This document shows positions 3,247-23,504 of a stretch of DNA of 38,886 nucleotides, piece after piece (positions within the stretch are counted from its first letter, which is position 1; each line of letters begins with the position of its first letter). A program made the position numbers and the translations under genes. A model generated the notes under the pieces. It made no database searches and was not told the origin of the DNA. It saw nothing but the letters and a program-made list of their open reading frames with translations. The stretch is taken from positions 1 through 38,886 of IMG/VR virus record IMGVR_UViG_3300036857_000285; one strand, written 5' to 3'. This stretch comes from a virus.

Positions 3247-4176
3247 ATGGCACGAGTCAAGTATGACGTGCGCGGAGTCGAGGGAGCCAGGACTCTGCTG
3301 CCGGCGGGCGTGTACAACGCCAAGGTCGAGTCGGCTGACGTCACGAAGCCGGAAGGCAAGGACGAGCGCATCGAGCTGGTCCTGGAGGTCGTCGGCGACA
3401 AGACGCACAAGGGGGCCAAGCTGTACGAGTACATCAACCTGGAGTCCGAGAGCGCGAAGTGGAAGCTCCGCGAGTTCTTGGAGGCCACCCAGGTGATCTC
3501 GAACGGCAAGAAGGAGTCGGGCACGCTCGACACCTCGAAGCTCGTCGGCACGGTCATCGGCGTCAAGACGTTCGTCAGGCCGGCCGATGACGCCCGTGGG
3601 TTCGACGAGTCGGCCAGAGTCCGCCGGATGTTCGCGGCCGACACTGTCTCGACCAACGGCGACACTGACGTCGAGGACTTGGACGAGGAGGAGGGCGACT
3701 ACAGCGAGATGGACCTCGCCGAGCTGAAGGCCGAGTTGAAGGAGCGCGGCCTCTCCACCAAGGGCAAGAAGCCCCAGCTCATCGCCCGCCTGGAAGAGGC
3801 CGACGAGGAGGATGAGGAGGAGGAGGAGTCCGACGACACCGAGGAGGAAGGTGAGGAGGAGGAGTACGCCTGGGAGGACATCGCCGAGCTGACCAAGGCG
3901 GAGCTGAAGGACCTTATCACCGAGGAGGAGCTGGACATCAAGGTCTCCAAGAAGGCGGATGTGGAGGACATTCGCCAGAAGGTCGCCGACGCGTTGGAGA
4001 TCGAGGTCCCCGAAGATGAGGAGGAGGACGAGGAGGACAGCGACGACTACGATGAGTGGGACGTCGATGACCTGAAGGAGGAGCTGGAGCAGCGCTCCCT
4101 CTCGGTCAAGGGCAGCAAGAAGCTGCTCGTCTCTCGCCTGCGCAAGGATGACGCAGAAGAGGATAAGCCCTTCTAG
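3247..4176 (+). CDS. SSB-like single-stranded DNA binding protein with two SAP domains and acidic DKPF tip
   Basis: A 309-residue protein. Residues 1-130 form a beta-rich domain (GVYNAKVESADVTKPEGKDE, then LVLEVVGDKTHKGAKLYEYI) of the type found in DUF669-like phage ssDNA-binding proteins. Residues about 152-185 and 268-301 are two SAP-like helix-turn-helix motifs (DLAELKAELKERGLS and DVDDLKEELEQRSLS), with a third related helical segment around 210-250. Long Glu/Asp linkers join them. The protein ends EEDKPF, matching the acidic aromatic tip (DDIPF in E. coli SSB) that recruits replication and repair partners. GGAGG lies about 11 nt before the ATG. Neighbours (nuclease, Sak4 ATPase, primase) support an ssDNA role. 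SSB plus repeated SAP domains in one chain is unusual. Confidence 0.75.
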   Translation: MARVKYDVRGVEGARTLLPAGVYNAKVESADVTKPEGKDERIELVLEVVGDKTHKGAKLYEYINLESESAKWKLREFLEATQVISNGKKESGTLDTSKLVGTVIGVKTFVRPADDARGFDESARVRRMFAADTVSTNGDTDVEDLDEEEGDYSEMDLAELKAELKERGLSTKGKKPQLIARLEEADEEDEEEEESDDTEEEGEEEEYAWEDIAELTKAELKDLITEEELDIKVSKKADVEDIRQKVADALEIEVPEDEEEDEEDSDDYDEWDVDDLKEELEQRSLSVKGSKKLLVSRLRKDDAEEDKPF

Positions 4177-17178: not shown

Positions 17179-17371
17179 TTGTAGCCTCGTACGCGCGAGC
17201 GCGCGTGCTACGCGCGGGGGAGGGCGGGGGAGAGGGGGTGAGAGAGAGAGGTAGAGAGAGAGATGTATATCTATATATATCATATATATAACAGAAGCAA
17301 ATCCTTCATACTAGAGAAAAAAATTTCTAGAGGGCTTGGGTCGCTTCCGCCCGCCCTCGCGCGCGAGGTGG

Positions 17372-17646: not shown

Positions 17647-18090
17647 ATGGAAGTTCCGACCCGCAAGATCAGGGCCGAGGCCAACCGCCCCGGCTTCTCA
17701 GGTCTCGAGATCACGAACACCGAACTCGGTGACCGTGTGGAGGCCGCCCTGGCGGCGAAGCTCGGCTGGACGCCGCTCGTCGGCCCGGCGGCGGGCCGCG
17801 CCCGCCAGGGAGCGTTCGACCTCATTGACGAGAACGGCATGTACGTCGAGGTCAAGGCGGTGAGCGTTTTCGCCAAGGAGTACAAGATCAAGTCCGGCGC
17901 TCGCGCGAACACCCGCAAGACCAACTTCGGCAACGGCCACGGCGTCAAGTTCGGGACCGTCATGGCGATCGTCGAGCAGCGCCCCAACGGCAAGCTGAAG
18001 GCGTGGCTCTACCGGCGCGAGGGTGTCGGCTGCTTCCGCCTCGGCGCTGACGGGCTGGGTTGGGAGTTCGTCGGGAAGGTGACGGTCTGA
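17647..18090 (+). CDS. PD-(D/E)XK nuclease-like protein
   Basis: ATG 17647 follows GGAGGG by 7 nt; 147 residues. The core QGAFDLIDENGMYVEVKAVS gives Asp58 and Glu68-x-Lys70, the D...E-x-K active-site pattern of PD-(D/E)XK nucleases such as Hjr, Mrr and many restriction enzymes. A helix with an acidic residue (GDRVEAALAAKLGW) precedes it, as in that fold. The C-terminal half has strands and basic residues (KIKSGARANTRKTNFG). Whether it is a junction resolvase, a restriction-like endonuclease or a helper is not decidable. It lies 670 bp upstream of the CA/TG-free zone and has normal CA/TG content itself. Its own promoter is at 17552. Confidence 0.65.
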   Translation: MEVPTRKIRAEANRPGFSGLEITNTELGDRVEAALAAKLGWTPLVGPAAGRARQGAFDLIDENGMYVEVKAVSVFAKEYKIKSGARANTRKTNFGNGHGVKFGTVMAIVEQRPNGKLKAWLYRREGVGCFRLGADGLGWEFVGKVTV

Positions 18091-18556: not shown

Positions 18557-18862
18557 CTCGGTAGGTGAAACAAGGTTTCACACGCCAGCGCCCACGCCCA
18601 TGCCCCTACCCACACTCATGCCCCTCCTCATGCCCAGGGCGCTGCCCACGCCCCTGGTCGTCGCCCTGCCCCTGCCTTTGCCCCTACCCCTCTGCCGGCC
18701 CGCTACCCGCCGGCCGCTAAGGCCCCTTCCCGCGCCCCGCTCCGGCGCCCCGCTAGGCTGCCTTCCCGTACCCCGCTTAGACCGCCGGCCCGCTAACCGG
18801 CCTAACCCTAACGGGGGTAGCGGCCCGGCCGCTAGGAGCTCCCCGCTAACCGGCCTTCGCGC

Positions 18863-18898
18863 TACCCCTCGCCGCGCCCCTACCCCTCGCCGCGCCCC
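18863..18898 (+). repeat. Direct tandem repeat, 2 x 18 bp
   Basis: TACCCCTCGCCGCGCCCC occurs twice in tandem at 18863-18880 and 18881-18898, followed by a diverged TACTCGTACCCCTC. It lies inside the CA/TG-free zone. Confidence 0.9.
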
Positions 18899-19361
18899 TA
18901 CTCGTACCCCTCTTAGCGACGAGCCCCTAGCGGCCGGCCGCTAACCCTACCTACTAACCGGCCTTCCGGCCGCTACGCGAAACCCTACCCTCCGCTTTTC
19001 GTCGCCCCGAAAGAGGGGTTAGAAAAGTAGGCGATTTCCGGCTAGCGGTCGTTCTAAGGCGCGTTCCGGTCTTAGTCGGTCCGATCGTCCTAGCGAACCC
19101 CGAACGGCGCTTAGAACGAACGGAAGGCGGCTCTACGGCGATCCTCGCGTTCGGGCCGTCCGCTAAGCGGGGTTCCCGTACCTAGGTACGGACTTTCGCT
19201 CCTCCGCTTCGCCTCTCGCGCGGGCGGAGTAACCCCGCTTAGGGGATAGGAAAAAGCCTATCCCGAAGACTACCCTTTCGAGAAGTACGGTTCCGACGCC
19301 GGGTAGCCGATACTTAGGGCGTCGGGAGAAACGGTCTCCCGCTAACGAAAGAAGGGTTACG

Positions 19362-20072
19362 ATGGGACGAAAGAAGAACGAGACGGGCGAGCGGACGCTT
19401 ACCCCGGTCGAGACGACGATTTTCGAGCGGTACGGTCTCCGCCCGGACTTCCCGACGGGCGCGGCGCTTCGGAACTCCGGTAAGGCGCTCGCCGAGATCC
19501 GCGACGCGAAGGGCGCGAAGTGGGACGATATCGGAACCCTCGTTAGCGGGAACCCCGAGCGGCCCGTCTCGGCGATTACCCTCCGCGTCCCGTACCGCGC
19601 TTTCCTCGCGTCGAACGAGAAGGCGCGGGCGGCGGCGGTCGAGAACGGGAAGGCCGACCTAAGCGCCCTTCCGGCGGACGGGCCGACGATCGTCGCCGAG
19701 CGCGACGGGCGCGGCGCGGGCTTCCCGCTCCTCGCCGTCCGTACCGGCCTTACCGAAGCGGACGTTCGCCGCCTCTACGTCGCGGCGGGCGGCGAGTCGG
19801 TCGACGGTCGGATCTACGTCGCGGCGAGCGGGGCGCGTACCCTCGTTCTCCCGAACGGCGAGCGGAAGGCGCTCGCGCCGTTCGACGCGAAGGCCGCTAA
19901 GAAGGCCGCGAAGAAGGCCGCTAAGCGGGCTTCCGAGAAGGCGGCCGCCGTCGCCGCCGAGCCCGCGCCGACGGTCGACGCCGACGCCGAGAAGGCGGCC
20001 CGTAAGGCCGCTAAGAAGGCGGCGAAGAAGGCGGCGAAGAAGGCGGCCCGGGCCGCCGAGAACGCCGCTTAG
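19362..20072 (+). CDS. Histone H1-like tailed protein encoded without CA/TG; no His, Gln or Cys
   Basis: ATG 19362 follows GAAAGAAGG; 236 residues, TAG stop. Residues 1-165 are a mixed domain with segments such as TIFERYGLRPDFPTG, SAITLRVPYRAFLAS and LTEADVRRLYVAAGG, family not recognised. From about 167 to the end is a Lys/Ala-rich tail built from AAKKAAKK repeats, like histone H1 or bacterial Hc1/AlgP tails, so non-specific DNA binding is likely. The protein has no His, Gln or Cys, one Trp and only the initiating Met, exactly the residues whose codons need CA or TG. Leu never uses CTG or TTG, Val never GTG, and Ala never GCA. Hairpins lie just before (19323-19341) and after (20081-20106) the gene. 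It may package or mark the surrounding DNA; that is inference. Confidence 0.8.
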   Translation: MGRKKNETGERTLTPVETTIFERYGLRPDFPTGAALRNSGKALAEIRDAKGAKWDDIGTLVSGNPERPVSAITLRVPYRAFLASNEKARAAAVENGKADLSALPADGPTIVAERDGRGAGFPLLAVRTGLTEADVRRLYVAAGGESVDGRIYVAASGARTLVLPNGERKALAPFDAKAAKKAAKKAAKRASEKAAAVAAEPAPTVDADAEKAARKAAKKAAKKAAKKAARAAENAA

Positions 20073-20080
20073 GGGCGACG

Positions 20081-20106
20081 CTAGGGCCGCCTACGGGCGG
20101 CCCTAG
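20081..20106 (+). terminator. Hairpin after the CA/TG-free gene (11-bp stem, TACG loop)
   Basis: CTAGGGCCGCC at 20081-20091 pairs perfectly with GGCGGCCCTAG at 20096-20106. It begins 9 nt after the gene's TAG stop, so it is a likely terminator of actinobacterial type without a U-tract. It contains no CA or TG. Confidence 0.65.
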
Positions 20107-20218
20107 TAACCCGGGTTACCGCGCCCCGCGCCTCCCGCCTCGTTCTCGCTTTCTAACCGAACTCGCGAGCGGAAGAACCGAGAGGGGACGCGACGGTTCG
20201 CGCGCGGTACCCGGGTAC

Positions 20219-20246
20219 GCGGCCGGCCGGTTTACGGGCCGGCCGC
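20219..20246. other. Boundary hairpin of the CA/TG-free zone (10-bp stem)
   Basis: GCGGCCGGCC at 20219-20228 pairs with GGCCGGCCGC at 20237-20246 across an 8-nt loop. The next two bases, 20247-20248, are the first TG after the zone, so the stem's outer edge coincides with the compositional boundary. Confidence 0.8.
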
Positions 20247-20431
20247 TGTCGGGAGGGCGCTGCCGCTGTAACCTCCCGTGTCCTCCAAAACCCCACCTCT
20301 CCACGCGAGGTGCCCCACGCGGCACCGCCCCGACACCCCGCCCCAACCCCCCAACCCCGCTCAACTCTCAATTTACTAGATTCAGGTGTCTCTACGCGCG
20401 CGCGTTATGCACCACTCCGAAAAATTTGTTT

Positions 20432-20460
20432 TTGACAGAACTATGAAAACACAGTAGCCT
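20432..20460 (+). promoter_or_regulatory. Probable late-operon promoter (TTGACA-N17-TAGCCT)
   Basis: A consensus TTGACA at 20432-20437 is 17 nt from TAGCCT at 20455-20460, in an AT-rich patch between GC-rich sequences. The -10 box is weak, which would suit activation by a phage late regulator. It precedes the terminase and structural genes. Confidence 0.55.
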
Positions 20461-20592: not shown

Positions 20593-21060
20593 ATGGGAAC
20601 AACCGGTACTGAAGTCAGCATCAGCATCAGCACCGAGCTAGCTGAGGCAACGTTACAAGCCCTCGCTCAGTTCCCAAACGCCGACCCCGTCAAGCAGCTG
20701 CTTTACGCGGTGCTGCACAGCAGACAAGCACTCGATCGCCTGGACAAGGCGGTCCGTAAGCAGCTCAAAAGGCAGAAGGGCGCTCCCGATCCGCTCTACT
20801 TCACGCCGGTGGGACAGTCCCTCGCCGACGCCCAGCACCGAACACGCGCCCAGCTGGGTATCCTAGCCAAGCAGTACATTGCGCTGGGAATCGAGGAACG
20901 GCAAACGAGGGTGATCGAGGACTGGTCGAACATCCTCCTCCCGTTCGTCACTCAACTCATGGACGACCCGGACCTTGCCCTGACCAGAAGGCAAAGGGAG
21001 AAGGTCCCAATGGTCGTCGAGCGCCACCTTCGCACGCTGGAGCGCCCCGAGCTAGGCTAG
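20593..21060 (+). CDS. Putative small terminase subunit
   Basis: ATG 20593 follows GGAAAGG; 155 residues, almost entirely helical and charged (ALDRLDKAVRKQLKRQ, LADAQHRTRAQLGILAKQY). Size, helical content and location (first late gene, one gene before TerL) fit a DNA-recognising small terminase subunit. No helix-turn-helix signature is decisive, so the assignment rests mainly on position. The candidate packaging region would be the 520-bp gap upstream. Confidence 0.5.
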   Translation: MGTTGTEVSISISTELAEATLQALAQFPNADPVKQLLYAVLHSRQALDRLDKAVRKQLKRQKGAPDPLYFTPVGQSLADAQHRTRAQLGILAKQYIALGIEERQTRVIEDWSNILLPFVTQLMDDPDLALTRRQREKVPMVVERHLRTLERPELG

Positions 21061-21088
21061 CACGCACACAACCAGTCACCCACCGCTC

Positions 21089-21919
21089 GTGCTCTCGAAC
21101 AACACACGCCCAATCGCGCTTGACATCTGCTGTGGTGCCGGTGGTGCCAGCATGGGCCTGTGGCAGGCTGGTTTCTTCCCGGTCGGGCTGGACAACAGGC
21201 AGGCTCCTCTGAAGCACTACCCGTTCAGCCACATCCTCGCCGACCTCCTCGACGTCGACATTCCGCTGCTCGTCGAGCAGATAAAGCCAAGTTTGATAAT
21301 CGCCGGGCCACCCTGTCAGGGCTACTCAGACAGCGCAAGCCTTCGGAACGGCAGACCAGTAACGACCCGCAGAAAGAGCGAGGCCCACCCGCCGCAGAAC
21401 CTCATCCCCTATCTGCGAGCACAACTAAACACGCTCAGCAAACAAATCCCCTTCATCATCGAGAACGTCGAGGGTGCCGAGGCCGAACTGATCCCCAGCC
21501 TGACGATTCGTCTCTGCGGCTCATCCTTCGGGCTGAGGGTCCGTCGGCATCGCCTGTTCGAGTTGCATCACATCAGCTTAGCCAACACACACGTCCCGCG
21601 CTGCGACCACAAGTGGCAAGAGGACCTTCCGCTGTACGAGAACAACAGAAGTAGGCCAACGGGCATCATTCAGGTCTTTGGCACAAGCAGTAAGGGCATC
21701 AAACTCCGTAATCCAGCTAACCGCACACAGACACAGACGGAACTCGCCAGGGTGGCGATGGGCATAGACTGGATGCCTGCACGCGACCTCTCGCAGGCCA
21801 TCCCGCCCGCCTACACGCGATACCTGGGCCGTCAGGTCATTAGGCAACTCCCACAGCCAAGTGCGGCCAGTGCGAGCCGGAATGGGCACCGGCCGAGGCT
21901 AAGGTTGGTTCATGACTGA
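21089..21919 (+). CDS. DNA (cytosine-5) methyltransferase, orphan
   Basis: A 276-residue C5-MTase. Motif I is DICCGAGGASMGLWQAGF at about residues 12-29, motif IV IAGPPCQGYS with the catalytic Cys near 76, motif VI FIIENVEGA, motif VIII RRHRLFE, and motif X PPAYTRYLGRQVIRQL. The target recognition region between VIII and X is short. These enzymes flip out a cytosine and transfer a methyl group from S-adenosylmethionine; the target sequence cannot be read from the gene. Start GTG 21089 has no clear ribosome binding site. It is inserted between the putative small terminase and TerL and overlaps TerL by 8 nt. No cognate restriction enzyme is adjacent. It likely protects phage DNA, and its proximity to the CA/TG-free zone is notable. 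Confidence 0.88.
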   Translation: MLSNNTRPIALDICCGAGGASMGLWQAGFFPVGLDNRQAPLKHYPFSHILADLLDVDIPLLVEQIKPSLIIAGPPCQGYSDSASLRNGRPVTTRRKSEAHPPQNLIPYLRAQLNTLSKQIPFIIENVEGAEAELIPSLTIRLCGSSFGLRVRRHRLFELHHISLANTHVPRCDHKWQEDLPLYENNRSRPTGIIQVFGTSSKGIKLRNPANRTQTQTELARVAMGIDWMPARDLSQAIPPAYTRYLGRQVIRQLPQPSAASASRNGHRPRLRLVHD

Positions 21920-23504
21920 CATCGGCCACGTCGGTGCCCCTCCCGGGCTGGCGCTGCAGATCCGGCAGCAGCTCGACGCGCGCCGCCAGACACAGCGCTG
22001 GGTGAGAAACCCGACGGGCTGGCTAATCAACAACACCACAGCCCGCTTCTGGTCCAAGCAGAAGGAGATCGCCAACGCGCTCGTCCGGCACCCCCGTGTG
22101 ACGGTCCGGAGCGCACATGACACAGGCAAGAGCTTTACTGCCGCCCAGCTGACGGCTTGGTGGCTATCCGTCCACCCACTCGGCTCGGCCTTCGTGGTCA
22201 CTACCGCTCCCACGGCCCCGCAGGTTGAGGTCATTCTGTGGAGGGAGATTGGCAAGGTCAAGCGCCAGGCCAATCTCCCCGGACGGATCACCTCCGGGAA
22301 CATCCCGAAATGGAAGTCCCCGGCCGACGAAATCATCGCCTACGGCAGGAAGCCGGCAGACCTCAAGAATGCCCAGGAGGCGGGTCAGGCCTTCCAGGGT
22401 ATCCACGCACGGTACATCTTGGTCATCATGGACGAGGCTTGCGGCATCCCCGAATGGCTTTGGAACGCCGTCGAGACGATCGCCACTAACCAGTACGCTA
22501 GGGTGCTGGCCATCGGCAACCCCGATGTGCCCGAAACGCCATTCGAGCGGACCCATCTCCCCACCTCCAGATGGCACAGCATCAAGATCAGCGCCTTCGA
22601 CACGCCGGCCTGGACCGGCGAGGATGTCCCAACCGCCCTCCTGACGGATCTGGTCTCCCCGGAGTGGGTCCAAGCACGAAAGGATGAGTGGGGCGAACAG
22701 AGCCCGCTCTACAAGAGCAAGGTCCTGGGTGAATTCCCCGAGGTCAGCGAGGAGACGCTCATTCACCCGCGCCTGATTCAAATGGCGCAATTCCTGGACA
22801 GAACCCAAGAAGCACTGAGTGAACCCGGAACGTTCGGGCTGGACGTCGCACGGAGCGCGAACAAGAACGAGAACGCTTGCTACAGAAACAGAGCAGGCCA
22901 TCTTCGATTGGAGTTCGCGAACTATGAGCCCAACACGATGCGTACTGCCGGTCGGGCGGTTCGGCTTCTCAACCGAACTGGAGGCAACGCTGATATGGTC
23001 GTTGATACCGTCGGAGTTGGCGGCGGTGTCTACGATCGACTCAGGGAGCAGAACTTCCCCGTCAAGCCGTTCGTCGCCTCAGAAGCCCCCAGTACGCCCA
23101 CGAACAAGAAGCGGTTCGTCAATAGGCGCTCTGAGCAGTGGTGGAACTTCCGCAAGATGTTCGAGCAAGCACTCATCGACCTCCCGCCGCAGGGAGAGGA
23201 CGACAAGCTGATCAGTCAGCTCCTCTCGATCAGATACCTGATCAGAAGCGACGGGAAGATCATGGTCGAGAGCAAGGAAGACATGGAGGACAGAGGGCTA
23301 CCATCACCGGATCGCGCCGACGCCGCCATGATGGCGTGTGTCAACCAGGTCACTTTGTCCGGCGACTTCTACATCCCGCCGCCCCAAAGCTTGAAGGCAC
23401 AGCTCGGCATCACTACCCCCGATCCGACCAACATCCTGACGGACCTTGGCATCCCGGCGGACCTCCAGGGCTTGACAGGCGACCTCCTCACGAAGCAATG
23501 GTAG
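21912..23504 (+). CDS. terL: Terminase large subunit (ATPase and nuclease)
   Basis: A 530-residue packaging motor. Walker A is SAHDTGKSF near residue 68, Walker B ILVIMDEACG near 172, followed by an AIGNP coupling-type motif. The C-terminal RNase H-like nuclease has FGLDVARS near 311, VDTVGVGGGVYD near 360 and PDRADAAMMA near 466, supplying the metal-binding acidic residues. It translocates DNA into the prohead at the portal and cuts unit genomes. The first 8 nt overlap the methyltransferase gene. Full length for the family. Confidence 0.93.
   Translation: MTDIGHVGAPPGLALQIRQQLDARRQTQRWVRNPTGWLINNTTARFWSKQKEIANALVRHPRVTVRSAHDTGKSFTAAQLTAWWLSVHPLGSAFVVTTAPTAPQVEVILWREIGKVKRQANLPGRITSGNIPKWKSPADEIIAYGRKPADLKNAQEAGQAFQGIHARYILVIMDEACGIPEWLWNAVETIATNQYARVLAIGNPDVPETPFERTHLPTSRWHSIKISAFDTPAWTGEDVPTALLTDLVSPEWVQARKDEWGEQSPLYKSKVLGEFPEVSEETLIHPRLIQMAQFLDRTQEALSEPGTFGLDVARSANKNENACYRNRAGHLRLEFANYEPNTMRTAGRAVRLLNRTGGNADMVVDTVGVGGGVYDRLREQNFPVKPFVASEAPSTPTNKKRFVNRRSEQWWNFRKMFEQALIDLPPQGEDDKLISQLLSIRYLIRSDGKIMVESKEDMEDRGLPSPDRADAAMMACVNQVTLSGDFYIPPPQSLKAQLGITTPDPTNILTDLGIPADLQGLTGDLLTKQW

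Follow-up and report, generated by a model that had tools for sequence, protein, structure and literature searches.

The window analysed here, a stretch of 38,886 bases that makes up a whole IMG/VR virus record, belongs to a tailed phage and contains a zone of about 1.5 kb from which the dinucleotides CA and TG are banned. Within its loose limits (Table 1) the zone has 3 CA/TG steps against 165 expected from base composition, and it comprises not a gene alone but also flanks of about 600 bp on the upstream and 174 bp on the downstream side. A second, diverged phage (contig L003) maintains the same ban, which costs three amino acids and, in that phage, the NTG start codon as well, and which is the product of selection. 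We infer that the cassette of control region, gene and terminator is exempted, at the level of DNA, from some activity that would otherwise act on it. Our best explanation as a whole, which we hold tentatively, is that the cassette is kept CA:TG-free most likely as a modification-free island, with a C5-methyltransferase of the phage as the leading candidate for the modifying enzyme, an agent that we only suspect.

A CA/TG-free zone before the terminase genes

All assigned genes of the window phage run in the + direction, and by protein comparison their products resemble those of actinobacterial phages. The left half encodes an exonuclease, a Sak4-like protein, a primase/helicase, DNA polymerase III alpha and ThyX, while the genes for terminase, portal, protease, capsid and tape measure are in the right half; scans for tRNAs and against Rfam yielded nothing of relevance. 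The zone lies directly before the gene for the small terminase subunit (TerS). Elsewhere, the replication block includes a protein with two SAP-domain matches (3247-4176) that has relatives in contigs G002 and G006, and the phages compared have alternating CGCGCG/TACGTACG tracts some tens of bp ahead of the terminase promoter (20370-20420 in the window), with another tract of this type at 17188-17215 of the window.

The ban is absolute and strand-symmetric, and it holds in coding and non-coding DNA alike and across codon borders. The CA/TG-free runs in the zone measure 726, 604 and 158 bp, whereas the longest such run in 3 Mb of sequence simulated with a 3rd-order Markov model trained on the rest of the phage was 97 bp. 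The coding sequence has 2 CA/TG steps against 58 expected (z = -10.2 by synonymous resampling with the phage's own codon usage), and the deficit is still strong (z = -7.3) when only the gene's own synonymous codons are shuffled. The non-coding flanks follow the same rule, such that the gene accounts for only half of the feature. In non-coding DNA no single dinucleotide absorbs the loss; the others rise diffusely, close to what the ban alone predicts. Outside the zone, CA/TG steps occur at about the expected rate (observed/expected per gene 0.86-1.22), and there is no shortage of CA in the structural genes, whose third codon positions even favour C ahead of an A (0.87). When about 130 other loci were scanned for zones free of any dinucleotide class, a CA/TG zone turned up only in the window phage and L003, and DNA-pattern searches for the same motifs in other CA/TG-free codings returned only the contig of L003 or unrelated loci that lack a zone.

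Table 1. Position and basis of the zone, its elements and neighbouring genes in the window.
Feature	Position	Strand	Basis and remarks
147-aa protein with PD-(D/E)XK-like motif (FDLI...VEVK; GAFDLIDENGMYVEVKAV)	17647..18090	+	Motif by eye
CA/TG-free zone, loose limits	18694..20246	.	CA=0, TG=3
CA/TG-free zone, strict limits	18760..20246	.	1487 bp; CA=0, TG=2 (ATG 19362-19364; TGG at 19521)
Non-coding upstream part, rich in inverted repeats	18760..19361	+	Forward fold z = -3.2 against dinucleotide shuffles; sequence not conserved in L003
Candidate -10 element GATACT within motif GTAGCCGATAMT	19309..19314	+	Putative, from motif comparison with L003 (GATAAT)
Zone gene; 236-aa product with two HTH-like modules, beta hairpin and Lys/Ala tail	19362..20072	+	ORF and predicted model; CA=0, TG=2 (ATG and TGG at 19521)
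GC-rich hairpin just past the stop codon	20081..20106	+	One present in L003 too
Last hairpin, TTTA loop in both phages	20219..20246	+	Zone ends exactly at the hairpin foot in both
Terminase operon promoter (TTGACA, 17 bp, TAGCCT)	20432..20460	+	Read from the sequence; matching elements in relatives; outside the zone
Small terminase subunit (probable)	20593..21060	+	Position before TerL; conserved in 7/7 phages
C5-cytosine DNA methyltransferase	21089..21919	+	Motifs PPCQ, ENV, RRHR; PF00145 and PHROG 363 matches

The ban is maintained in a sister phage

L003 is a contig of a related phage whose large terminase subunit (TerL) is 86% identical to that of the window phage. At L003:78-940 (about 864 bp) it shows the same ban, with 1 CA/TG step against 92 expected, and it carries an orthologue of the zone gene whose product is 63% identical to that of the window and has no His, Gln, Cys or even Met. 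The ribosome-binding site is conserved, but where the window has ATG behind AGAAGGGTTACG, L003 has ATT behind GGAAAGGGATTACG (L003:273-281), and after the preceding stop codon its gene has no in-frame ATG, GTG, TTG or CTG, which makes it a natural example of translation that starts without an NTG codon. The two genes are identical at 0.77, 0.75 and 0.57 of first, second and third codon positions, a pattern expected when a gene is translated and purifying selection acts on it, and the three TGs that are left in the two coding sequences are a conserved, codon-locked TGG in each gene and the single ATG.

The upstream non-coding parts (602 bp in the window, 201 bp in L003) give no convincing alignment. 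Because L003 keeps the ban despite only 63% protein identity, unrelated non-coding sequence and an ATT start, the rule must be actively maintained, which bears out the view of the preliminary description that the gene had been exposed to it for long and that mutants had been selected. The case named there as contrary, an orthologue with normal His, Gln and Cys content in CA/TG-free DNA, is not what L003 presents, since its gene is equally CA/TG-free and its product is without all three residues.

Both phages share a -10-like motif, located 47 nt before the start codon in the window and 65 nt in L003, and the zone begins well ahead of it, by about 550 bp in the window and about 130 bp in L003. 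Thus, the zone is not just one transcript. Directly after the zone, a 15-nt motif (GCTGCCRCTGTAACC; window 20259-20273, L003:953-967) is conserved, unlike the surrounding non-coding DNA.

The product of the zone gene and its family

The product contains 0 His, 0 Gln and 0 Cys, one Trp and one Met (the start), and its gene is devoid of CTG, TTG, GTG and NCA codons. At the phage's composition about 16 His, Gln and Cys residues together would be expected, and the probability of finding none is about 8e-8. These counts confirm what had been reported for the gene and ascribed to its avoidance of CA/TG, although the feature has proved larger than reported. The predicted model (mean pLDDT 72, from five sequences) comprises a pair of HTH-like helical modules, a beta hairpin and a long, basic helix of Lys and Ala, the Lys/Ala-rich basic tail spanning residues 176-236, and Foldseek found a weak local resemblance to sigma region 4 that is statistically insignificant (E above 1). 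The model suggests that the product is likely a DNA-binding protein, and the DNA binding earlier predicted from the Lys/Ala tail is to that extent upheld, as a prediction. Searches for homologues found none in annotated phages, plasmids, Pfam, PHROGs, PADLOC or the PDB, and scans of genome contigs with the product alignment and with TerL returned no relatives. L002, considered as a homologue, was discarded as a chance match.

Five contigs from three lineages (G002-G006; TerL about 70%) represent relatives that lack the zone. They carry two members of the family, p1 and p2, before TerS, and the zone gene is nearer to p2 both in sequence (24-32 bits versus 7-17 for p1) and in position. The family proteins of these relatives, encoded in normal DNA, contain Gln, His and Met. 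Therefore, it is the DNA rule, and not the protein family, that explains the amino-acid gap; with L003 sharing the gap in its own CA/TG-free zone, this agrees with the earlier proposal that the dinucleotide rule overrides amino-acid choice. Moreover, since the family also occurs in phages without a zone, the protein needs no zone. The preliminary description had imagined a protein that coats, marks or protects the zone; the reverse, a zone of DNA on which the protein or a methyltransferase cannot act, is an equally good reading.

The CA/TG content of p2 is normal (1.05-1.14), while that of p1 is mildly low (0.70-0.84 in the coding sequence, 0.76-0.87 in the 300 bp upstream). In three lineages p1 either is the gene with the lowest synonymous z or overlaps the ORF that has it (-3.9, -4.9 and -3.1), and its codon-junction effect is clear only in G002 and G003. 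The p1 gene at L006:3359-3916 and its matches in G002, G003, G005 and G006 are, together with their upstream DNA, the most CA/TG-poor part of these genomes. These values hint at a weak form of the avoidance that goes with the gene family or its locus. That the zone is a foreign insert with its own composition was considered and rejected, as the gene is syntenic with the p2 of the relatives and the ban persists over unrelated non-coding sequence.

What the cassette may be exempt from

The proposal that we prefer is that purifying selection, working on the double-stranded DNA, would keep control region, gene and terminator free of the CA:TG step. Some DNA-acting activity would use CA:TG as its minimal target, and the cassette would have to stay untouched by it. 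In its most likely form, the cassette would be a modification-free island: a two-base enzyme would mark CA (or TG) elsewhere in the phage genome, and the unit for the basic DNA-binding protein would have to be read or bound unmarked. The strength with which we hold the parts of this proposal differs. We lean slightly towards exemption from some CA/TG-directed DNA activity in general. That the cassette lacks the two-base target of the phage's own modification or binding system, leaving one gene unmarked in a marked genome, is plausible if short of probable, and that a methyltransferase or another base modification is the activity in question is possible but rather doubtful.

CpG and GpC methyltransferases are established, the kinase of phage M6 (see below) sets a precedent for modification in a dinucleotide context, and by analogy we think that a base-modifying enzyme would fit a two-base rule best. 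The leading candidate would be the C5-methyltransferase, which alone among DNA-modification enzymes was recognised in the window and whose gene separates those of the small and large terminase subunits. Its gene is present in 2 of 2 zone phages and in 0 of 5 zone-less relatives, but as the two zone phages are sisters this correlation amounts to one evolutionary event. About 80 other phage loci with related methyltransferases showed no such zone, and the mild CA/TG poverty of p1 (0.70-0.87) in relatives that lack the methyltransferase counts against the enzyme and in favour of a cause that lies in the family or locus. The placement of the methyltransferase gene within the terminase block in both zone phages (window 20593-23504) may also hint at a link between methylation and packaging.

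The main rival, which we consider unlikely, is that DNA is coated or silenced, preferentially at CA/TG, by the cassette's own two-HTH, Lys/Ala-tailed protein, and that the gene for this protein, being CA/TG-free, escapes such silencing. The predicted basic protein with HTH-like modules would suit such a role, the control region and terminator are under the ban as well as the gene, and among the genes of the relatives only the family paralogue p1 is CA/TG-poor as well, in its coding sequence, its 300 bp upstream and its synonymous z. However, the p1 effect is mild and incomplete at codon junctions, the closer orthologue p2 has a normal CA/TG content, and so absolute a ban would hardly follow from a preference in binding for two base pairs.

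Less probable still is a target-free leading segment, in which the zone, by analogy, would perhaps be the first-entering end of the genome, CA/TG-free against a host nuclease, and its product would protect the rest. The location directly before TerS and a precedent among T5-like phages (see below) are in keeping with this, and the nuclease-like gene just upstream of the zone (17647-18090), which occupies the place where the relatives carry p1 and has 0 homologues in phage, viral-contig and PDB searches, could to judge from its motif belong to a target-free-segment system. Against it, the p2 of the relatives lies nearer to TerS and is not CA/TG-poor, and we know of no nuclease that has CA/TG alone as its target.

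We regard as very unlikely a rule at the level of RNA, whereby the transcript would avoid CA and UG because a ribonuclease cuts there. In both phages the zone stops, on its right, where the terminal hairpin ends, which on its own would also suit a transcript, but the zone extends well upstream of the likely promoter. Furthermore, CA and TG are a single step on double-stranded DNA and separate dinucleotides on RNA, so that the rule would have to ban two unrelated RNA dinucleotides at once, versus one step on DNA; action of the ban on DNA rather than RNA is the favoured reading. A mutational origin, with deamination turning CA/TG into TA as in the repeat-induced point mutation of fungi but only within the zone, would account for the high TA (rho 2.0-2.4) but is highly improbable and largely refuted by the codon counts: since TG to TA would turn GTG into GTA and CTG into CTA, and both are nearly absent (GTA in 0 of 25 Val codons and CTA/TTA in 1 of 31 Leu codons of the window and L003 genes), selection rather than decay is at work, while non-coding TA (72 observed) is near the 61 predicted by the ban alone, L003 starts with ATT and not ATA, and an intact frame would be unlikely.

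Comparison with known systems

That two diverged phages exclude one dinucleotide absolutely over 0.9-1.5 kb implies that a strong, specific force acts on a single base-pair step, and the open-licence literature that we searched held no precedent for local dinucleotide bans in phages. The agent, once found, would be either a two-base DNA-modifying or DNA-cutting activity with a built-in exempt gene or a binding protein that exempts its own gene. If the exemption of a modification-free island is true, the zone would amount to an epigenetic island that is hard-coded in the DNA and paid for in amino acids and a start codon.

Several known systems share single traits with the zone. Fungal repeat-induced point mutation likewise leaves a limited stretch with CA/TG loss and high TA; in the zone the codons do not have the CA/TG-to-TA signature, the gene is intact and the genome is that of a bacteriophage. 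With H1- and HU-type proteins the product has in common a Lys/Ala repeat tail of about 60 residues, unlike its body, which is predicted to consist of two HTH-like modules: no globular H1 or HU domain was matched in Pfam, and the model has HTH-like helices together with a hairpin. In both zone phages, the gene that lies between TerS and TerL carries the methyltransferase motifs of phage C5-cytosine methyltransferases (PHROG 363, PF00145), which in the other loci examined are unaccompanied by a zone.

Dinucleotide-specific thymidine hypermodification at TG or TC is described for phages M6, ViI and phiW-14, and the 5hmdU DNA kinase of M6 acts at TG (PMC6449724), thus providing a phage enzyme with a two-base context. 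A scan of the window ORFs for hypermodification genes yielded only ThyX and a weak polynucleotide-kinase match, and none of the ORFs scanned matched a hypermodification family in Pfam; a search of the first 50 kb of M6, a phage reported to carry its modification at TG, found no TG-free zone, which counts against the island model. An M6-like thymidine hypermodification was considered as the agent, and we did not recognise genes for it in the window.

A further likeness is to the target avoidance of T5-like phages, whose pre-early region lacks EcoRI sites (PMC13250531): there, as may be the case for the zone, a limited early or terminal segment is without the target of an enzyme, which occurs in the remainder of the genome. 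The zone differs in that the missing word is only two bases long and in that the ban reaches into the amino-acid content of the product and into the start codon.
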